Part shown: positions 47,108 to 58,282 of the stretch, in pieces
Position numbering within the stretch: position 1 is the first letter of the stretch
Layout: each line of letters starts with the position of its first letter
Source of the DNA: Candidatus Zipacnadum vermilionense
Lineage (GTDB): Bacteria > Armatimonadota > Zipacnadia > Zipacnadales > Zipacnadaceae
NCBI GenBank assembly: GCA_029821755.1
Contig: JALGSV010000019.1
Location: 1-60,129 of the forward strand
Direction: 5' to 3'
DNA length: 60,129 nt
The notes under the pieces: model-generated
Databases searched by the model: none
What the model was told of the DNA's origin: nothing
What the model saw: only the letters and a program-made list of their open reading frames with translations
Made by a program: the position numbers and the translations under genes

Positions 47108-49342
47108 ATGAGCGGACCGCTGCACGTGTTCCTCGCTGTGGTAGTGGTGTGCGTTTGTCTGGGAATAACCGGGTGTCGGGCGGCGGAGGGGGACCCCGCG
47201 ACCAACACCGGCCAGATCAAGCTGGCCTTGCCTGCCACTCCCCTGCCGGAGGGGTTCTCCTCCTACTACCACCCCGTCGCGGCCGAAGTGACCCCCAATA
47301 TCCCCGGTTACGCCCTGCCCCTCGACTGGGGCCAGGTCACCAACGCCGAACGCTTCACCTACGTCAAAGATGCTCAGCGTGACCTGCTTACGCGCAACGG
47401 CTTCGTCCTGCTGGGCGCCGGTCGCAGTGACGACATCGCCGACCTCTACGACAGTATCGAGGAGAGCGGCGACCCGGTCTGGGTCACGCCCGACGCGGTC
47501 CTCCACTCCTTCCACATCCAGTTCAACGAGACCCTGAAGACGGTGGAGGAGACCCAACTGATCCCCCTGGCCCTGCGCCTGTCGGAGCAACTCCAGCAGG
47601 CCAGCGAGGCACAGTACAATTCCTTCGACGGAGAGCTGCGGGAGGCCGCCCGGCGCAACCTGGCCTTCTTCAGCGTGGCCCGCCAACTGCTTGACCCCAA
47701 AGCTTCCCCGCCGGGGGTCGCGGGGGATAATCTGGTCCAGCAGGAGATCGGGCTGATCGAGGCCCATGCGGGCTTCGCCGCTAGTCCCCTGTTCACGTAC
47801 CAGGAGGACTACTCCCAGTACCTCCCCCGGGGCCACTACACCCGCAGCGAGCCGCTCAAGGCCTACTTCAAGGCCATGATGTGGTACGGGCGGATGGGCT
47901 TGCTGCTCAAGGGCAAGGACATTTCAGGAAATGCGCTGGTGACGGCGGAGGAGGCCCGGCGGCAAACGCTGCAAGCGGCGCTGATCGCCTCGTTGCTCTA
48001 CGCGCCGGCGCAGGCCGAGCAGGAAAGCCCGGCGGGGGCCTGGCGGCGCCTCTACCTGGTGACCGCCTTCTTCGCGGGATTCGCCGACGATCTAACACCT
48101 TACCAGTACGCTGAGCAGATCCGGGAGGTCTGCGGAGCGGCGGGTACCTGGGCCAAGCTGGCCGAGCCGGAGACCTTCGTAGCGTTGCGGGAAGCCCTGG
48201 CGGCGCTGCCCAAGCCGAAGATCTATAGTGGCGCGGGGCGGGTGGTCCTGATGCCGCCCTTCTCGCCGGAGCAGCTCGACGAGACCCTGGCGGACACCCA
48301 GGGCCTGCGCTTCATGAGCCAGCGGTATACGCCGGACTCGTACATGTTCCAGCAGTTGATCTTCCCGGCGGTGGGGCCTTTCACCGGCCAGGGAGAGCCT
48401 TTCACCATGGTCATGACCCCTGGCGGCCCGCAGCGCAACTTCGCGCGGGGGCTGGATGTGATGGCCGTCTTGGGCAGCGATCGGGCGCTGCAACACCTGC
48501 AGGACGGCGGCGACACCGCCTACGGCAAGTACGACACGCAGATGGCCGCCCTGCGCAAGCAGTTCGGCGACCTGCCCGCCAACGAGTGGGGCCGGGACCT
48601 GTACGCCGGCTGGATCTACTCCCTGGAGGCGCTGATCCAGGCGCGGCCGGAGGGCTACCCCAATTTCATGCGCACCGCGGCCTGGGAGGACCGGCAGCTA
48701 CAGGTGGCGCTGGCCTCTTGGGCGCAACTGCGGCATGACACCATCCTTTACGCCAAGCAGCCTTATCCGCCGGTGGCTGGGTCGGCGCCGCCTCCGCCCC
48801 CGCCCAAGAGCGCGGGTTTCGTCGAGCCCCTGCCGGAGTTCTACGCGCGGATGCTGGCTCTGACTAACGCCATGCGCGATGGGCTACGGGACCTGGGGAT
48901 CATGCCATCGGGCACCCTCCCCCGGCTGCAGTCGCTGGCCAGTCTCCTACAGGCCCTGCAGGACATCTCCGTAGCCGAGCTGTCTGGCCAGGCCCTGAAT
49001 GAGGGGCAAGAGGAGGTCATCAAGTACTTCCACGCCTACCTCAACGAGGGCCTGCATGACACCGATCCGGAGGGCCTGAAGACCACGGTGGTGGCGGACG
49101 TGCTGACCGACCCGGTGGGGATGCTGGCCCTGGAGGAGGGCAGCGGCAACGTGCGGCAAATGGTGGTGGCCTATAGCGACCCGGCGGGCAACGTCTTCCT
49201 CGCGCGCGGGGCGACGCTGAGCTACTACGAGTTCAAGCAGCCGATGGCGGACCGCCTCACCGATGAGGCCTGGCGGACGCTGCTAGCGGGAGCCGACGCG
49301 CCCAAGCCGCCGGAGTGGGTGGAGGGGATCGGTGGGAAGTAA
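47108..49342 (+). CDS. DUF3160 lipoprotein
   Basis: 744 residues from ATG 47108; ATG 47102 is too close to the GGGAGGCG site. The signal MSGPLHVFLAVVVVCVCLGITGC ends in a lipobox (ITGC), so it is probably membrane-anchored on the outside. The rest matches the large DUF3160 family: NAERFTYVKDAQRDLLTRNGFVL, VWVTPDAVLHSFHIQFNETLKTVEE, YSQYLPRGHYTRSEPLKAYFKAMMWYGRMGLLLKG, RFMSQRYTPDSYMFQQLIFP and SLASLLQALQDISVAELSGQ, with the typical YSDPAGNVFLARGATLSYYEFKQP close. The family's function is unknown; members are secreted by diverse environmental bacteria. The gene stands between argB and the hydrogenase locus. Positions 46944-47107 carry no feature beyond the ribosome site. Confidence 0.85.
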   Translation: MSGPLHVFLAVVVVCVCLGITGCRAAEGDPATNTGQIKLALPATPLPEGFSSYYHPVAAEVTPNIPGYALPLDWGQVTNAERFTYVKDAQRDLLTRNGFVLLGAGRSDDIADLYDSIEESGDPVWVTPDAVLHSFHIQFNETLKTVEETQLIPLALRLSEQLQQASEAQYNSFDGELREAARRNLAFFSVARQLLDPKASPPGVAGDNLVQQEIGLIEAHAGFAASPLFTYQEDYSQYLPRGHYTRSEPLKAYFKAMMWYGRMGLLLKGKDISGNALVTAEEARRQTLQAALIASLLYAPAQAEQESPAGAWRRLYLVTAFFAGFADDLTPYQYAEQIREVCGAAGTWAKLAEPETFVALREALAALPKPKIYSGAGRVVLMPPFSPEQLDETLADTQGLRFMSQRYTPDSYMFQQLIFPAVGPFTGQGEPFTMVMTPGGPQRNFARGLDVMAVLGSDRALQHLQDGGDTAYGKYDTQMAALRKQFGDLPANEWGRDLYAGWIYSLEALIQARPEGYPNFMRTAAWEDRQLQVALASWAQLRHDTILYAKQPYPPVAGSAPPPPPPKSAGFVEPLPEFYARMLALTNAMRDGLRDLGIMPSGTLPRLQSLASLLQALQDISVAELSGQALNEGQEEVIKYFHAYLNEGLHDTDPEGLKTTVVADVLTDPVGMLALEEGSGNVRQMVVAYSDPAGNVFLARGATLSYYEFKQPMADRLTDEAWRTLLAGADAPKPPEWVEGIGGK

Positions 49343-49551
49343 CGGAAGATGGGGGAGGGCCTGAGGGTCTCTCGATAGCCTGCTGTGGGGTGAGACAGGT
49401 AGCGCAGTCGAGGCCCGACCGACCCGCCGCGACTACTTCCGCGACTGCCGCGACCTGCGCCGGGAGGCCCGCACTGCTGCTGGTTTGGTGCCCTAACGAG
49501 GGGTCGCTTGCCGCTTCCGAATCGCGACTTCAGACTTTCCGCTAGGCGCCC

Positions 49552-49580
49552 TTGACGACGCCTGCAACTGTCGGTATTAT
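49552..49580 (+). promoter_or_regulatory. Promoter of the hydrogenase locus
   Basis: TTGACG (49552-49557), 17 bases, TATTAT (49575-49580). Transcription would start near 49587, with no other good promoter seen before hydA, so it may serve the whole gene string. Its -10 overlaps the ATG at 49579, which therefore cannot be the translation start. Positions 49343-49551 hold nothing I recognise. Confidence 0.6.
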
Positions 49581-49629
49581 GGAGCGGTGTTCTTTGGTCC
49601 TAACCCACCAGGACAGGGAGCGATGCATT

Positions 49630-49995
49630 CTGACGCTAGCTGGCGCCGTTGAGGTCCTCAAGGCCGAAACTGTTGTGCCTACCCCGTCACCAGAGGCAGA
49701 GGTGACGGGGTGTTTTGCGGCTGACCTGATGAGCGATGTGCTGGCGTTTGCCCGGCCGGGAGCGGTGCTGCTGACGGGACTAGCGACCGATCAGACCATC
49801 CGCACCGCCTCCGTCCGGCAACTGCTGGCGGTGTTCGTTATCGAGGGCAAACAGGTCGGCGGTGACATGACGGAGGCCGCACGCGAGGAAGGCATTCCCT
49901 TGTTCCGCACGCCGCTGTCAAAATACGAGGCTTGCGGTCTGTTGATGCAAGCCGGGCTGCGGCCGTACCGCACAGGTGTGACGCTCGCCACGTAG
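49630..49995 (+). CDS. DRTGG-domain protein, first of two; start codon non-canonical
   Basis: About 121 residues from CTG 49630 (or 122 from ATT 49627). No ATG, GTG or TTG lies between the predicted transcription start (about 49587) and the domain except an unmarked TTG at 49594, while AGGGAG at 49615-49620 is correctly placed for ATT/CTG. The domain is nearly complete: LTLAGAVEVLKAETVV, EVTGCFAADLMSDVLAFARPGAVLLTGL, TIRTASVRQLLAVFVIEGKQVGGDM, AREEGIPLFRTPLSKYEACGLLMQAGL. DRTGG domains are small nucleotide- or ligand-binding-like modules found in hydrogenase operons of Thermotoga-like and clostridial bacteria. Their role there is unknown. A terminator-like hairpin lies within its 5' coding part. 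It could also be read as a frameshift, with ATG 49623 as the true start. Confidence 0.65.
   Translation: MTLAGAVEVLKAETVVPTPSPEAEVTGCFAADLMSDVLAFARPGAVLLTGLATDQTIRTASVRQLLAVFVIEGKQVGGDMTEAAREEGIPLFRTPLSKYEACGLLMQAGLRPYRTGVTLAT
49682..49716 (+). promoter_or_regulatory. Terminator-like hairpin inside the first hydrogenase-locus gene
   Basis: A perfect 10-bp stem, CCCCGTCACC (49682-49691) and GGTGACGGGG (49701-49710), with a 9-base loop, directly followed by TGTTTT. It lies about 95 bases after the predicted transcription start and is in the coding part of the DRTGG gene. The position and shape are those of an attenuator, but no alternative antiterminator pairing is obvious and coding could explain it. 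Confidence 0.45.
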
Positions 49996-50022
49996 GGGCG
50001 CAGATCAACGTGCCCTGCAATC

Positions 50023-50451
50023 ATGGACACGCCCCCGCTGTCGCATCACGAATTCCCCATCCTGGGCCGGGCCTATTTTCTGGGTGGTCGCGCCTCCACC
50101 TCGGTACGTCGGGTGCTGTTGGAGGCGGGGGTGGGTGAAGAGGTTATCCAGCGCGTCTGCGTGGCGTGCTATGAGGCGGAGATGAACGTGGTGCTGCACG
50201 CGCGGTCGGGGTATATCTCTCTGGACATCTTTCCCGACCGGTTGGAGCTGGCGGTGTTCGACCAAGGACCGGGGATTGCGGACGTGCAGTTGGCCATGAC
50301 CCCCGGTTGGTCCTCGGCCAACGAGGAGGCGCGTTCTCTGGGCTTCGGCGCCGGGATGGGCCTGCCCAACATCCGCGAGCAGGCCGATGCGATGGAGTTG
50401 AACAGCGTCCCCGGTGAGGGGGCGAGTCTGAAGTTGACGTTCTGCCGGTAG
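50023..50451 (+). CDS. RsbW-like anti-sigma-factor-type ATPase
   Basis: 142 residues, the length of a free-standing GHKL (HATPase) domain. N box CYEAEMNVVLHA (about residues 49-60), G1 box VFDQGPGI (about 80), G2 box GFGAGMGLPNI (about 108-118) and a closing strand GEGASLKLTF. It is the anti-sigma or switch-kinase type rather than a full sensor histidine kinase, as no dimerisation histidine is present. It lies 27 bases after the first DRTGG gene. Homologs occur in the same position in Thermotoga-type hydrogenase operons, so it may relay a redox or H2 signal. The partner protein is unknown. Confidence 0.86.
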   Translation: MDTPPLSHHEFPILGRAYFLGGRASTSVRRVLLEAGVGEEVIQRVCVACYEAEMNVVLHARSGYISLDIFPDRLELAVFDQGPGIADVQLAMTPGWSSANEEARSLGFGAGMGLPNIREQADAMELNSVPGEGASLKLTFCR

Positions 50452-50549
50452 GCACGGCCCGCGTGGCGCGGGTCCGCCGGCCGGCGCTGTGCAGAGGGAC
50501 GGGGAAGGGGCGGACGGGGAAGCCCATTCCACGCGAAGGAGACCCTGGC

Positions 50550-50894
50550 ATGTCCGACCTCGCGGTAGCCCGGGCCGTCGAACATCTCGGTCTGACCATA
50601 CGCGCCGGTGAGACGCGACTGGAGACGGTCATCACGGGCGCCCAGGTCAGTGACCTGCTCAGCCACGTCATGTCGCGCGGCAAGGCCGGGCATTTCTGGA
50701 TCACTAACCAGAGTCATGCCAACATCGTCGCCGTCGCCGCGCTGGCCGGGCTGTCGGCCATCGCCATCGCGGGCGGCTTCGAGCCGGAAAAGGAAGCAGT
50801 TATCCGGGCCGAGGAGGAGGACATCCCCCTGCTGACCTCGCCCGATTCGGCCTATGTGCTGGCCGGCAAGCTGTGGGAACTCGGGGTCAGATAG
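50550..50894 (+). CDS. DRTGG-domain protein, second
   Basis: 114 residues; ATG 50550 follows GCGAAGGAGACCCTGGC. The whole protein is one DRTGG domain: VARAVEHLGLTIRAGETRLETVITGAQVSDLLSHVMSRGKAGHFWITNQSHANIVAVAALAGLSAIAIAGGFEPEKEAVIRAEEEDIPLLTS, ending SAYVLAGKLWELGV. It is much closer to the family consensus than the first copy (VITGAQVSDLLSHVM, NIVAVAALAGLSAIAIAGG). The first copy and this one flank the anti-sigma-type ATPase gene, and the PHP gene starts eight bases downstream. The role of the domain in this context is not known; both copies are probably co-expressed. Confidence 0.88.
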   Translation: MSDLAVARAVEHLGLTIRAGETRLETVITGAQVSDLLSHVMSRGKAGHFWITNQSHANIVAVAALAGLSAIAIAGGFEPEKEAVIRAEEEDIPLLTSPDSAYVLAGKLWELGVR

Positions 50895-52394: not shown

Positions 52395-52766
52395 GTGAAA
52401 ACCCGAGAGGAACTACAGGCTCTGCGCGAGAGCGCCAAGGCCGCCCTGGCCGTTCGTGACCAGTCGGGCGGCCCTCGCGTGGTCATCGCCATGGGCACGT
52501 GCGGTATTGGCGCCGGCGCCCGGGAGGTCATGTCCGCCCTGCTGGAGGACCTCGCCGGCCGCGGCCTGGCCGAGGTCACGGTTTCTCAGACCGGCTGCAT
52601 GGGTCTGTGCGACCGCGAACCGCTGGTTCAGGTCTTCTGCCCCGGCCAGCCGTCCGTCACCTACGGTCCGGTGACCCCCGCCGTAATGCGGCGCATTGTC
52701 GCTGACCACCTGGTCAATGGGCAGGTCGTCCAGGAATACTGCATCGCCACCGGATCGGAGGCTTAG
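52395..52766 (+). CDS. [2Fe-2S] ferredoxin-like protein of the hydrogenase locus
   Basis: 123 residues from GTG 52395, chosen because AAGGAGG ends eight bases before it; ATG 52368 lacks a site and adds residues not seen in homologs. The start MKTREELQALRESAKAAL matches the small thioredoxin-fold ferredoxin encoded upstream of hydC in Thermotoga-like operons. Cluster-binding Cys are in VIAMGTCGIGAGAREVM (about 37) and TVSQTGCMGLCDREPLVQVFCPGQP (about 69-90). Only one Cys is in the first segment, as in the family, so the fourth ligand may be the Cys of VFCPG. It may pass electrons to HydABC. Overlaps the hydC region by a stop/GTG contact. Confidence 0.85.
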   Translation: MKTREELQALRESAKAALAVRDQSGGPRVVIAMGTCGIGAGAREVMSALLEDLAGRGLAEVTVSQTGCMGLCDREPLVQVFCPGQPSVTYGPVTPAVMRRIVADHLVNGQVVQEYCIATGSEA

Positions 52767-52771
52767 TGATC

Positions 52772-53248
52772 ATGGCCGAGGGCTGTCTGTGCGAGGAAAC
52801 CTACCCCAAGATAGACGCCATCATCAGCGAGAAAGGCGCCGTGCCCAACTCACTCATCGAGATCCTGCACGCCGTGCAGGAGGAGATCGGCTACCTGCCC
52901 CAGGCGGTGCAGGAGTACATCGCCGAGGCGCTGGGCATGTCCGCCGGGACTGTCGAGGGTGTGGTGAGCTTCTACAGCTTCTTCACCACCGTCCCGCGCG
53001 GCCGCCACACCATCAAGGTCTGCCAGGGCACGGCCTGCTACGTGCGGGGCGGCAAGCGCCTGCTGGAGTCCGTGACCAAGCACTGCGGCTGCGGCGTGGG
53101 CGAGACCAGTGAGGGCCAGCGCTTTAGCCTCGACGTGGTCCGCTGCATCGGGGCCTGCGGTCTGTCGCCGGTCATGATGGTAGGCGACGACGTCTACGAC
53201 CGGGTCAAACCGACCCGGGTTGCCGAGATACTGGATAAGTACGAGTAG
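52772..53248 (+). CDS. hydC: [FeFe] hydrogenase subunit HydC (NuoE-like)
   Basis: 158 residues from ATG 52772 (GTG 52766 is an alternative). NuoE fold: N-terminal helical bundle (SLIEILHAVQEEIGYLPQAVQEYIAEALG, about 24-52), then VVSFYSFFTTVPRGRHTIKVCQGTACYVRGG (about 64-93) and DVVRCIGACGLSPVMMVGDDVYDRV (about 120-144). The four cluster Cys (C-x4-C and C-x3-C) bind a [2Fe-2S] centre. In bifurcating hydrogenases HydC pairs with HydB to form the core that splits electrons. It lies six bases after the ferredoxin gene and 171 bases before hydB, with repeat A5 in that gap. Confidence 0.94.
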   Translation: MAEGCLCEETYPKIDAIISEKGAVPNSLIEILHAVQEEIGYLPQAVQEYIAEALGMSAGTVEGVVSFYSFFTTVPRGRHTIKVCQGTACYVRGGKRLLESVTKHCGCGVGETSEGQRFSLDVVRCIGACGLSPVMMVGDDVYDRVKPTRVAEILDKYE

Positions 53249-53254
53249 GGGGGA

Positions 53255-53300
53255 GCCTCACCCCCCAGCCCCCTCCCCTGGCAGGGGAGGGGGAGTAGGG
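53255..53300. repeat. Palindromic intergenic repeat, family A copy 5
   Basis: CCTCACC, then CCCCCTCCCCT, loop GGC, AGGGGAGGGGG. It begins six bases after the hydC stop and separates hydC from hydB. No T-tract follows, so complete termination is unlikely; it could set the ratio of upstream to downstream mRNA. Confidence 0.75.
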
Positions 53301-53419
53301 AAGTCTCCCCCCCCCCGCCCCCCTGCGCACGTTCCGTGCACTTGGTAGGAGAGGGGAGTAGGAGCGGCCCCGCGCTGTTCACTCGCGATTCGCGATTCTC
53401 TCAGAAGGAGACTCTCGCT

Positions 53420-56400
53420 ATGCCAACCTTCCGATCACACGTCCTGGTTTGTGCCGGCGCTAGCTGCGTTTCTTCCGGCTGCCAGGCCGTAGCTGAAGCC
53501 ATGGAGCAGTCCCTGCAGGATCTAGGCCTGGACCAGGAGGTCCGCGTCGTGCGCACCGGGTGTATGGGATCGTGCGACCTCGGGCCCGTCGCCGTGGTCT
53601 ACCCGGAGGGAGTCTTCTACCAGAAGCTCACCCCCGAGGACGCCGCGCTCATCGCCGAGGAGCATCTGCTCAAGGGCCGCCCCGTCCAGCGCCTGATGTA
53701 TGTGCCGCCCGAGACCGGCGAGCCCGCCCTGCAGGTCGATAAGATCCCCTTCTTCGCCCTTCAGCAGAAAATCGTCCTGCGCAACTGCGGCGAGATTGAC
53801 CCCGGCAACATCGAGGAGTACATCGCCCGCGACGGCTACGAGTCCCTCGCCAAGGCCCTCACCGAGATGACCCCGGAAGAAGTCGTCGCCACCGTCAAGG
53901 CCTCCGGCCTGCGCGGGCGGGGCGGCGGCGGCTTCCCTACTGGCCTGAAGTGGGAACTGACCGCCAAGTCGCTCGGTGAGACCAAGTACGTGGTCTGCAA
54001 CGCCGACGAGGGCGACCCCGGCGCCTTCATGGACCGGAGCGTCCTGGAGGGCGACCCCCACAGCGTCATCGAGGCCATGACCATCGCCGGCAATGCCATC
54101 GGGGCGCACCAGGGCTACATCTACGTCCGCGCCGAGTATCCCCTGGCCATCGAGCGCCTGAAGGTGGCCCTCGCTCAGGCCCGCGAGTACGGCCTGCTGG
54201 GGGAAGACATTTTCGGCAGCGGCTTCGGCTTTGACATTGACCTACGCATGGGCGCGGGGGCCTTCGTCTGCGGCGAGGAGACCGCGCTGATGCACTCCCT
54301 CGAGGGCAAGCGCGGCGAGCCCCGCCCCCGCCCGCCCTTCCCGGCCCAATCCGGCCTATACGACTGCCCGACACTGCTCAACAACGTCGAGACCTACGCT
54401 AATATCGCCCCCATCATTCTCAAGGGCGCGGAGTGGTTCTCGTCCATCGGCACGGAGACCAGCAAAGGCACCAAGGTCTTTGCGCTGGCGGGACATGTCA
54501 ACAACACCGGCCTGGTCGAGGTCCCCATGGGCACGCCGCTGGGCACCATCATCTTCGAGATCGGCGGCGGCATCCGTGGGGGGCGGGACTTCAAGGCCGC
54601 TCAGAGCGGCGGCCCCTCCGGCGGCTGCCTCCCCCGCGAGTTCCTCAACACTCCGGTGGACTACGAGAGCCTCAAGGCCCTCGGCTCCATCATGGGCTCG
54701 GGGGGCCTCATCGTCATGGACGAGACCACCTGCATGGTGGATCTGGCCCGCTTCTTCCTGGAGTTTGTGCAGGACGAGTCCTGCGGTAAATGCCCGCCCT
54801 GCCGCATCGGCACCAAGCGGATGCTGGAGATCCTCGAGCGCCTGTGTGAGGGCGAGGGTCGCGAGGGCGACATTGAGCTACTGGTGGACCTCGGCGAGCA
54901 GATAAAGCAGACGGCGCTGTGCGGTCTGGGACAGACCGCGCCGAATCCGGTCCTCAGCACGATTCGCTACTTCCGTGACGAATACGAGGAGCACATCCGC
55001 GACAAGCGGTGCCGCGCCGGAACGTGCAGCGAGATGATGAAGGCGCCTTGTGAACACGCCTGCCCCGCCGGGGTGGACGTGCCGGCTTACGTCACCGCGC
55101 TGGCCGAGGGCAGGCTGGACGAGGCCTACCGCATCATCCGCGAGACCAACCCCTTCCCCTCGGTCTGCGGCCGCGTTTGCACCGCTTACTGCGAGACCCA
55201 CTGCCGCCGCGGGCAACTCGATTCCCCGGTCGCTATCCGCCTGCTCAAGCGCGCCGCGGCTGACCACCGCACCAGCACCTGGCAGCCGACCTTGCACCTG
55301 CCGCGGCACAAGAAGGTGGCGGTGGTCGGGGCCGGTCCGGCCGGGCTGACCGCCGCCTACGACCTGGTCCGCAACGGCTACGACGTGACCGTCCTGGAGC
55401 GTGAGAGCATCCCGGGCGGTATGATGGCTCTAGGCATTCCCGACTACCGCCTGCCCCAGGACGTTCTGCAGCGCGAGATCCACGACCTGGTGGACCTGGG
55501 TGTGGACCTGAAGACCGGGCAGGCCTTCGGCACGGACTTCACCCTCGACGATTTGACCGCCCAGGGCTACGAGTCCGTCTTCCTGGCCATGGGTTGCCAC
55601 GCAGGCATCCCGCTCGATTGTCCCGGCGCTGACGCGGAGGGCGTGCTGGACGCCGTGCAGTTCCTGCGCGACATTGCCCTGAGCCGCACGCCCCAGGTGG
55701 GCAAGCGGGTAGCCGTGATCGGCGGCGGCGACACCGCCATTGATTCGGCTCGCTCCGCCCTGCGCCTGGGGGCGAGCGCGGTGCACCTGGTATACCGCCG
55801 CACCCGTGAGGAGATGCCCGCGCACCCCGAGGAGATCGAGGAAGCTATTCGCGAGGGTATCCAGATTCACTACCTGGCCGCGCCTAAGGAAGTGATCGTC
55901 CAGGACGGCAAGGTGGCGGCGCTAGTTAGCCAGGAGATGCAGCTGGGCGACTTCGGCCGGGACGGCCGTCGGCGACCCGAGCCGGTGGAGGGCGCTGAGT
56001 TCACCCTCGAGGTGGACAACGTCATCGCCGCTATCGGTCAGCGTCTCGAGTCGTCCTGCGGCTGCGTGGACACCGAGCGCGGCAAGGTCTGCGTCGACCC
56101 GCTCAACCTGGCCACCAACCAGGCCGGTGTCTTCGCCGGGGGCGACGCCACCGCGGGTGCCATGACCGTAGTGGACGCCATCGCCGATGGCCACCGGGCC
56201 GCGCAGGCCATCCACTCCTACCTCTCCGGTGAGCCCATACCGCAGGCCAAGAAGCGCTCCAAGACCCGGGTGAGCGCCGAGGTCATGGCCGCCCTGGAGG
56301 CGGCCGCCGAGGAGGAACGCGCCGTCGCGCAGGTGCCCAAGATCCCCGACTCCTGTCGACACAGCGGCTTTGCCGAGGTGGAGCTGGGCTTCTCCGTGCC

Positions 56401-56461
56401 GGTAGCCTGCCAGGAGGCTTCGCGGTGCCTGCACTGTGACTATGTGATGATTGAGGAGTAG
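53420..56461 (+). CDS. hydB: HydB (NuoF-like) fused to a GltD-like NADPH oxidoreductase
   Basis: 1013 residues from ATG 53420 (AGAAGGAG 10 bases upstream). Modules in order: thioredoxin-like [2Fe-2S] domain (1-95; VCAGASCVSSGC and RTGCMGSCDLGP). NuoF domain (about 130-520): GRGGGGFPTGLKWE and ADEGDPGAFMDR bind FMN and NADH; SCGKCPPCRIGT (454-465) binds a [4Fe-4S] cluster. Then RDKRCRAGTC (about 527), a motif also seen in standard HydB. The usual two-[4Fe-4S] ferredoxin tail is replaced by a GltD-like part (about 540-1010): CEHACPAGVDVPAYV and NPFPSVCGRVC...CE..C (cluster domain), VAVVGAGPAGLTAAYDL (632, FAD), VAVIGGGDTAIDSARSAL (about 764), YRRTREEMPAHPEE (about 791, NADPH Arg), GVFAGGDATAGAMTVVDAI (about 904). 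Related to Bfu/HydABC and, in its tail, NfnB or StnC. NADPH use is inferred. Confidence 0.92.
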   Translation: MPTFRSHVLVCAGASCVSSGCQAVAEAMEQSLQDLGLDQEVRVVRTGCMGSCDLGPVAVVYPEGVFYQKLTPEDAALIAEEHLLKGRPVQRLMYVPPETGEPALQVDKIPFFALQQKIVLRNCGEIDPGNIEEYIARDGYESLAKALTEMTPEEVVATVKASGLRGRGGGGFPTGLKWELTAKSLGETKYVVCNADEGDPGAFMDRSVLEGDPHSVIEAMTIAGNAIGAHQGYIYVRAEYPLAIERLKVALAQAREYGLLGEDIFGSGFGFDIDLRMGAGAFVCGEETALMHSLEGKRGEPRPRPPFPAQSGLYDCPTLLNNVETYANIAPIILKGAEWFSSIGTETSKGTKVFALAGHVNNTGLVEVPMGTPLGTIIFEIGGGIRGGRDFKAAQSGGPSGGCLPREFLNTPVDYESLKALGSIMGSGGLIVMDETTCMVDLARFFLEFVQDESCGKCPPCRIGTKRMLEILERLCEGEGREGDIELLVDLGEQIKQTALCGLGQTAPNPVLSTIRYFRDEYEEHIRDKRCRAGTCSEMMKAPCEHACPAGVDVPAYVTALAEGRLDEAYRIIRETNPFPSVCGRVCTAYCETHCRRGQLDSPVAIRLLKRAAADHRTSTWQPTLHLPRHKKVAVVGAGPAGLTAAYDLVRNGYDVTVLERESIPGGMMALGIPDYRLPQDVLQREIHDLVDLGVDLKTGQAFGTDFTLDDLTAQGYESVFLAMGCHAGIPLDCPGADAEGVLDAVQFLRDIALSRTPQVGKRVAVIGGGDTAIDSARSALRLGASAVHLVYRRTREEMPAHPEEIEEAIREGIQIHYLAAPKEVIVQDGKVAALVSQEMQLGDFGRDGRRRPEPVEGAEFTLEVDNVIAAIGQRLESSCGCVDTERGKVCVDPLNLATNQAGVFAGGDATAGAMTVVDAIADGHRAAQAIHSYLSGEPIPQAKKRSKTRVSAEVMAALEAAAEEERAVAQVPKIPDSCRHSGFAEVELGFSVPVACQEASRCLHCDYVMIEE

Positions 56462-56536
56462 GGGAGCACCGCGAGGGTGCGCCCTACAGAGACGCCGATG
56501 CTACCAGGGAGCAGCGACGGCAACAGGAGGACTCAT

Positions 56537-58282
56537 ATGCCTGATTTCACCGTAACCATCAACGGTCGCGAGGTCCCCGCCCGTCCGGGCATGACCGTCC
56601 TGGAGGCGGCTACCGAGGCCGGGATCAGCATCCCCACCCTCTGCTACCATCCGGACCTGGCGCCGCAGGGCGCCTGCCGCGTGTGCCTGGTGGAGATCGA
56701 GGGCGAGCGCGTCCTGCAGCCCTCCTGCTCTTTCCCGGTGCGGCCCGGCATGATCGTGCAGACGCATTCGGCTCAGGTCCGCAAGGCCCGCCGGACGGTC
56801 GTGGAACTGCTGCTTTCTGACCACCCCTCCGACTGCACGGTCTGCGCCCGCTGCGGGACCTGCGAGCTACAGGCGCTGGCTGAGGACCTCGGCCTGCGCG
56901 AGGTGCGCTTTCGCGTCCCCCCCCCGGGCCACGAGATGGACGACTCCTCGCTCTTCGTCGTCCGCGATCCGGACAAGTGCATCCTCTGTCGCCGTTGCAT
57001 CGAGACCTGCGCGCAGATCCAGGGCGTGGAGGCCTTGCGCCTCAAGGGCCGCGGCTACGAGTCCCTCATCGGCGCGCCCTTCGACACCCCGCTGGGCGAC
57101 ACGCTCTGCGTCAATTGCGGGCAGTGCATCAGTCGCTGCCCCACCGGCGCGCTCACCGAGAAGACCCACATCCCGCAGGTGTGGGCCGCGCTGGAGGACC
57201 CGGAGACCTTCACCGTCGTCCAGACCGCCCCGGCCGTCCGCGTGACGCTCGGCGAGGCCCTGGGCCTGCCCCCCGGCGAGATCGTCACCGGCCGCATGAC
57301 CGCCGCCTTGCGCGTGCTGGGCTTCGACCGCGTCTTCGACACCGACTTCACCGCCGACCTGACCATCATGGAGGAGGGCCACGAGCTCATCCAGCGCGTC
57401 ACCACCGGCGGCGTCTTGCCCCAGCTCACTTCCTGCTGCCCCGGCTGGATCAAGTTCATCGAGCACTTCTACCCCGACCTGCTGCCCAACGTCTCCTCCT
57501 GTAAGTCGCCGCAGCAGATGTTCGGCGCGCTGGCCAAGACCTACTTCGCCGAGGTGGCGGGAGTGGACCCGGCCAGGATGTGCGTGGTCTCCATCATGCC
57601 CTGCACCGCCAAGAAGTACGAGGCGGCCCGGCCGGAGATGAACGACTCGGGCTACCAGGACGTGGACTACGTCCTCACCACCCGCGAGCTGGCCCAGATG
57701 ATCAAGGAAATGGGCCTGGACTTCGCGAATCTGGAAGAGGAGAACTACGACGATCCGCTGGGCCAGTCCACCGGCGCGGGGGTCATCTTCGGCGCGACCG
57801 GCGGGGTCATGGAGGCCGCCCTGCGCACCGCCTACGAGGTCATCAGCGGCGAGAAGCTCGAGGATCTGGACATCACCCCGGTCCGCGGCATGGAGGGCAT
57901 CAAGGAAGCCTCTGTACAGATCGACAGCCTGGAGCTCAAGGTGGCCGTGGCGCACGGTCTGGGCAACGCGGCCCAGCTCCTGGAGAAGATCGCGGCCGGG
58001 CAGGCGGACTACCATTTTGTGGAGATCATGGCCTGTCCCGGCGGCTGCCTCGGCGGGGGCGGCCAGCCCGTCCCGACTTCGCTGGACATTCGCAAGACCC
58101 GGGCGGCGGCCATCTACCAGGCCGATAGGGAACTGCCCATCCGCCGCTCGCACGAGAACCCGTCGATCACGGAGATCTACGCCAAGTTCCTCGGCGAGCC
58201 GCTGAGCGACAAATCGCACCACCTGCTGCACACCAAGTACACCGCCCGCACCAAGCGGGCGGTGCAAGTGGAGAGGAAGTAG
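56537..58282 (+). CDS. hydA: [FeFe] hydrogenase catalytic subunit HydA
   Basis: 581 residues from ATG 56537 (ACAGGAGGACTCAT). Order: NuoG-like [2Fe-2S] domain (about 1-80, CYHPDLAPQGACRVC and PSC), His-Cys3 [4Fe-4S] (HPSDCTVCARCGTCELQ, about 95), two [4Fe-4S] ferredoxin motifs (CILCRRCIETC, about 148; CVNCGQCISRCPTGAL, about 191), then the H-cluster domain. The three H-cluster loops are canonical: TSCCPGWIKF (about 297), MPCTAKKYEA (about 353) and EIMACPGGCLGGGGQP (about 494). A fused small-subunit tail ends YAKFLGEPLSDKSHHLLHTKY. It makes or oxidises H2. The H-cluster maturases HydE, HydF and HydG are not in this window. It should form the trimer with HydB and HydC. Palindrome D2 lies three bases after the stop. 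Confidence 0.97.
   Translation: MPDFTVTINGREVPARPGMTVLEAATEAGISIPTLCYHPDLAPQGACRVCLVEIEGERVLQPSCSFPVRPGMIVQTHSAQVRKARRTVVELLLSDHPSDCTVCARCGTCELQALAEDLGLREVRFRVPPPGHEMDDSSLFVVRDPDKCILCRRCIETCAQIQGVEALRLKGRGYESLIGAPFDTPLGDTLCVNCGQCISRCPTGALTEKTHIPQVWAALEDPETFTVVQTAPAVRVTLGEALGLPPGEIVTGRMTAALRVLGFDRVFDTDFTADLTIMEEGHELIQRVTTGGVLPQLTSCCPGWIKFIEHFYPDLLPNVSSCKSPQQMFGALAKTYFAEVAGVDPARMCVVSIMPCTAKKYEAARPEMNDSGYQDVDYVLTTRELAQMIKEMGLDFANLEEENYDDPLGQSTGAGVIFGATGGVMEAALRTAYEVISGEKLEDLDITPVRGMEGIKEASVQIDSLELKVAVAHGLGNAAQLLEKIAAGQADYHFVEIMACPGGCLGGGGQPVPTSLDIRKTRAAAIYQADRELPIRRSHENPSITEIYAKFLGEPLSDKSHHLLHTKYTARTKRAVQVERK

Follow-up and report, generated by a model that had tools for sequence, protein, structure and literature searches.

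The infC gene starts with AUU, a codon used in the autoregulation of IF3, and trp-type attenuators of biosynthetic operons combine a short reading frame with a GC-rich hairpin near the 5' end. Unusual anticodon stems of the initiator tRNA were earlier described in some mycoplasmas and rhizobia. In the rep gene of FIB plasmids, a CTG start codon together with a good ribosome-binding site gives just enough Rep (PMC11983097). CTG (CUG) accounts for about 0.024% of annotated bacterial starts (PMC11497404, PMC11983097), forms the least stable initiation complexes and initiates poorly in E. coli (PMC11497404). The three G-C pairs of the initiator tRNA are highly conserved in all domains (PMC7949028), and a mutant with G30-C40 changed to C30-G40 lost discrimination against CUG in vitro (PMC11497404).

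Here we analyse a stretch of 60,129 nucleotides of Candidatus Zipacnadum vermilionense (the window), a contig of a 4.39-Mb draft genome. It very probably contains an ordinary [FeFe] hydrogenase operon front end whose first gene codes for a small DRTGG-like protein and begins with CTG 49630, a weak codon that would limit synthesis of this protein.

Results

Organization of the hydrogenase operon

The operon begins with genes for DRTGG-like, HATPase, second DRTGG-type, PHP and second HATPase proteins, followed by 2Fe-2S ferredoxin-like, NuoE-like, NuoF-like, [FeFe] hydrogenase A6 and a further [FeFe]-hydrogenase-like protein (Table 1). Its upstream neighbour on the same strand codes for a DUF3160 protein. 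With NF040763 (NADH-dependent [FeFe] hydrogenase, group A6) a score of 895 bits was obtained, above the cut-off of 765. For the DRTGG domain (PF07085), the product of the first gene remained with 13.8 bits under the curated cut-off of 25.2, and the second DRTGG-type protein, to which it is 29% identical, reached 24.9 bits. The NuoF-like subunit (53414-56458) carries a fused flavoprotein part of the glutamate-synthase-small-subunit type. For the ferredoxin-like gene, GTG 52395, which follows AAGGAGG, is the probable start in place of ATG 52368; the orthologues of this gene mostly have GTG or TTG there. A tRNA-Gly predicted by ARAGORN within the operon (53239-53318, minus strand) is likely false, being absent in orthologues and not among the 45 tRNAs found with the Rfam model.

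Table 1. Features at the front end of the operon and hydrogenase genes (positions in the window)
Feature	Position	Strand	Remarks
Sigma-70-type promoter, TTGACG(49552)-17-TATTAT(49580)	49552-49580	+	Motif scan and orthologue promoters
5' leader, short (~43 nt)	49587-49629	+	Predicted local hairpin pairs the Shine-Dalgarno site with UGUUCUUU; unconserved
Shine-Dalgarno site AGGGAG	49615-49620	+	9 nt ahead of CTG 49630
Out-of-frame reading frame MHSDASWRR	49623-49652	+	2-nt gap to the Shine-Dalgarno site; ATG in 3 of 14 orthologues
CTG start, first operon gene (by comparison)	49630-49632	+	NTG column in 14 of 14 orthologues
First gene (DRTGG-like protein of 121 residues)	49630-49995	+	DRTGG-type paralogue at about 50520-50894
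12-pair hairpin inside the first gene, then TTTT	49680-49712	+	Lineage-specific
HATPase_c_2 (anti-sigma-like ATPase) protein	50023-50451	+	ATG start
Hydrogenase structural genes: NuoE-like, NuoF-like, NADH-dependent [FeFe] hydrogenase group A6	52766-58282	+	

Start codon of the first gene

The operons of 14 orthologues, the window included, were compared, few and related sequences that come mostly from Armatimonadota MAGs of the same order and class. In the column of CTG 49630, near which the alignment had no gaps, CTG was found in seven (the window, G015, G019, G024, G025, G028 and G031), TTG in three (G017, G020 and G022), GTG in three (G002, G026 and G045) and ATG in one (G021). Identity in this column was 0.30 at the first base and 1.00 at the second and third, while the third positions of the codons after the start averaged 0.31. 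Amino-acid identity was 0.13 for codons -12 to -3 versus 0.52 for codons 2-15, and coding periodicity set in exactly at this column. The codon preceding it was a non-start codon in most orthologues (CCT, GCC, GCT, GGT) and was unconserved. G019 has an in-frame TGA stop two codons ahead of CTG, and G024 and G028 contain no ATG, GTG or TTG from the upstream stop to CTG; in all three the next standard in-frame start comes only at codon 34, and CTG is the sole workable in-frame start. An in-frame ATG or TTG/GTG lies upstream in G015 and G031, so that CTG there rests on the alignment, and in the window itself CTG is backed by the invariant NTG column. With a first base that varies freely before an unchanging TG, and with three genomes that offer no alternative start, CTG 49630 is, by sequence comparison, almost certainly the start of the first operon gene, and an indel appears excluded. 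An in-frame ATG in relatives, which the preliminary description had named as the sign of a sequencing indel, was not found at the site.

A GGAG-type Shine-Dalgarno site is present in nearly all orthologues, mostly 5-10 nt ahead of NTG, and likewise precedes CTG in the CTG orthologues other than the window. In the window, the gap from AGGGAG is 2 nt to ATG 49623, 6 nt to ATT 49627 and 9 nt to CTG 49630, the last being a spacing suited to a CUG-start gene. The preliminary description was correct in placing this site ahead of ATT 49627 and CTG 49630, with no usable in-frame ATG. It had also fitted the site to ATG 49623; this codon does open a frame for MHSDASWRR, but the fit is poor and the ATG is rare among the orthologues (Table 1). 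The frame is probably untranslated.

CTG starts as a general habit of the organism were rejected. In stretches totalling 1.5 Mb of the same genome, codons that follow a Shine-Dalgarno site toward the 5' end of long frames exceeded matched controls by 180 for ATG, 45 for GTG and 10 for TTG, while CTG gave -7.5 +/- 11, that is, no excess; CTG is thus not a routine start in this genome. In the operons compared, the 47 starts of four other genes (HATPase1, HATPase2, NuoE-like and NuoF-like) comprise 43 ATG, 4 GTG and no CTG. By contrast, 13 of the 14 first genes are non-ATG (Fisher p 5e-9, a value that ignores relatedness and belongs to a contrast picked post hoc). At the level of sequence, these counts demonstrate a preference for weak codons at the first gene and strongly support the earlier suggestion that it is weakly initiated. 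Homologues of the gene in Acidobacteria start with ATG. A codon-history tree, with weak deep support and an uncertain root, gave several start-codon changes.

Promoter and leader

The promoter TTGACG-17-TATTAT was the sole promoter-like site in 48800-50400, where shuffles gave an expectation of 0.2. RNA synthesis is predicted to start near 49587, and ATG 49579 overlaps the -10 box and would lie upstream of this point, in agreement with the preliminary description, which had put the transcription start past this in-frame ATG. Pairs of -35 and -10 boxes also precede most orthologues, mostly with 47-68 nt from the -10 box to the start codon. The shuffle p was <=0.01 for the window, G002, G019, G020, G024, G025, G028 and G031 and 0.05-0.06 for G017 and G022; the same scoring found no convincing promoter ahead of the first gene in G015, G021, G026 and G045. 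A sigma-70-like promoter is thus established by comparison ahead of most orthologues, which supports a transcription start downstream of ATG 49579. An in-frame TTG at 49594, missed before, is unconserved, lies only ~7 nt from the predicted RNA 5' end and has no Shine-Dalgarno site in the transcript.

A leader hairpin sequestering the Shine-Dalgarno site is predicted in the window (Table 1), but the orthologue leaders fold differently, and it was discarded. No known Rfam cis-regulatory RNA scored above the gathering score, with only sub-threshold matches. In G031, G024, G028 and G019, Rex-like palindromes (TTGTGCATTTGTGCACAA, TTGAGAAAAGATGCACAA and TTGTGAATTCTCTCACAT) were observed at 99-194 nt ahead of the first gene; they lie near or upstream of the hydrogenase promoter and are enriched over background. 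The window has none of these palindromes.

Hairpin inside the first gene

A perfect 10-bp stem (CCCCGTCACC/GGTGACGGGG, 49682-49710) with a 9-nt loop lies inside the first gene, as had been noticed before together with its T-rich tail; we extend it to 12 pairs and define the tail as four U, the TTTT being directly 3'. With an energy of -23 kcal/mol the hairpin surpassed dinucleotide shuffles (z -4.8), and synonymous recoding gave one as strong as the native in 1 of 1000 cases. Among 132 perfect 10-bp hairpins in 703 kb of the own genome, only three had five or more T among the 8 bases that follow. The hairpin is locally more than chance would give, yet it is unconserved: conservation in relatives, proposed earlier as a check, was seen nowhere, the structure being absent in the other 13 of 13 orthologues, including one of the same genus (present in 1 of 14), and not found at any fetched orthologue locus. 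G015 has the same 3' arm and lacks the 5' arm, G026 has a different stable fold at this position, and the remaining orthologues show nothing notable. The T-run falls within the codons for Cys-Phe-Ala, which nearly all orthologues conserve. A dispersed-repeat origin was rejected, with a single copy in the sequence searched. The simplest reading is a recent chance or lineage-specific feature, which may have a local polar effect.

Initiator tRNA of the order

In the initiator tRNA at G000:C104:46143-46219, and in the other genomes of the order with the full gene read, the anticodon stem is AGG-CTCATAA-CCT, so that A29-U41 replaces the first of the three conserved G-C pairs. The order's initiator tRNAs displayed in full also have a C1 x U72 mismatch. 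G030 has an extra partial match with GGG...CCT. Outside the order, GGG...CCC (G29-C41) prevails among the families of the phylum, AGG...CCT occurs also in families f14 and f27, and G041, of the same class, has T at position 41.

Discussion

According to the reading that we prefer, RNA polymerase would start near 49587 from the conserved sigma-70-type promoter, and the ribosome would bind AGGGAG and initiate at the CUG 9 nt downstream with fMet, a step that we infer from the sequence. The inefficient CUG would cap the presumed regulatory DRTGG-like protein, and the same strong promoter could still yield much mRNA for the downstream hydrogenase genes. The purpose of the weak codon might thus be a limited dosage, keeping the regulatory protein scarce relative to the hydrogenase. 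This purpose is what drift would dispense with: a small regulatory gene may simply tolerate any NTG at the same start position, without selected throttling. The variation of the codon among close families is consistent with drift, as is the promoter being unrecognisable too in G015 and G021, whereas ATG in only one of 14 first genes versus 43 of 47 neighbouring genes, and the ATG of the Acidobacteria homologues, argue against it; we regard drift as possible, if somewhat doubtful. The initiator tRNA could also be involved, A29-U41 for G29-C41 and C1 x U72 for C1 x A72 shifting start-codon scrutiny and the CUG of the first gene being kept because of it. Among the 14 orthologues, CTG is confined to genomes of this order, and G045, the sole orthologue-bearing genome of the class outside the order, has a GTG start and C at position 41. 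However, most genes here still avoid CTG, and the 29-41 pair differs from the pair mutated in vitro (G30-C40), making this link unlikely.

The remaining alternatives concern the hairpin and the position of the start. The preliminary description had considered a leader with attenuation. In such an attenuator or early terminator, poor translation of the first gene would let the hairpin halt RNA polymerase, and the weak CUG or the 9-codon frame would set hydrogenase read-through by polarity. The hairpin with its TTTT does exceed synonymous recoding, and untranslated RNA downstream of a weak start would lie exposed. Attenuation would nevertheless call for a conserved terminator with a U-tract, and this hairpin occurs in one of 14 orthologues, with just four consecutive U that code for conserved residues; it would also call for a leader peptide that is conserved and contains regulatory codons, and the frame of 9 codons is ill-spaced, unconserved and without a regulatory codon run. 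We consider attenuation here quite improbable. It is very hard to favour another start in the window genome, whether at ATT 49627, at TTG 49594 or, given a longer transcript, at ATG 49579. ATT is permitted as a start in table 11 and has a 6-nt gap to the Shine-Dalgarno site, but the codon at its place is a non-start in most orthologues, protein conservation is absent upstream of CTG, and ATG 49579 falls within the -10 box. Least probable of all is that a normal ATG is masked by an indel from sequencing or assembly, or by a true frameshift mutation, in the DNA from ATG 49623 to the gene body. Although ATG 49623 is indeed one frame off the gene, the orthologues likewise lack an in-frame ATG, the NTG column at 49630 is invariant, and CTG is the sole option in the independent MAGs G019, G024 and G028.

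A start at CTG 49630 means that gene finders limited to ATG, GTG and TTG would misplace the beginning of the first gene. A chromosomal gene with CTG repeated across several families provides a natural series of CTG, TTG, GTG and ATG at one site, which could be used to test the selection that acts on start codon strength. The order-wide change of a highly conserved feature of the initiator tRNA offers, in turn, a testable parallel in nature to the laboratory mutants that lack discrimination against CUG.

Compared with other [FeFe] hydrogenase group A6 operons with HATPase, DRTGG and PHP accessory genes, the window is alike in its NF040763 match and its accessory genes, and unusual only in start codon use and in the fused flavoprotein part of the NuoF-like subunit. 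Like trp-type attenuators, it has both a short frame and a GC-rich hairpin close to the 5' end; unlike these, it lacks a run of regulatory codons, showed no alternative pairing, and has its unconserved hairpin within the first structural gene. With infC it shares a weak start codon on a regulatory-type gene, but the codon is an NTG and the product has no known link to initiation factors. In RepFIB rep of F-like plasmids, a good ribosome-binding site is likewise followed by a conserved CTG, which has been read as low but sufficient expression. That case is a plasmid replication gene and experimentally proven, whereas the present one is a chromosomal DRTGG-like gene heading a hydrogenase operon and known by comparison, and its CTG, unlike that of rep, alternates with TTG and GTG between genomes.
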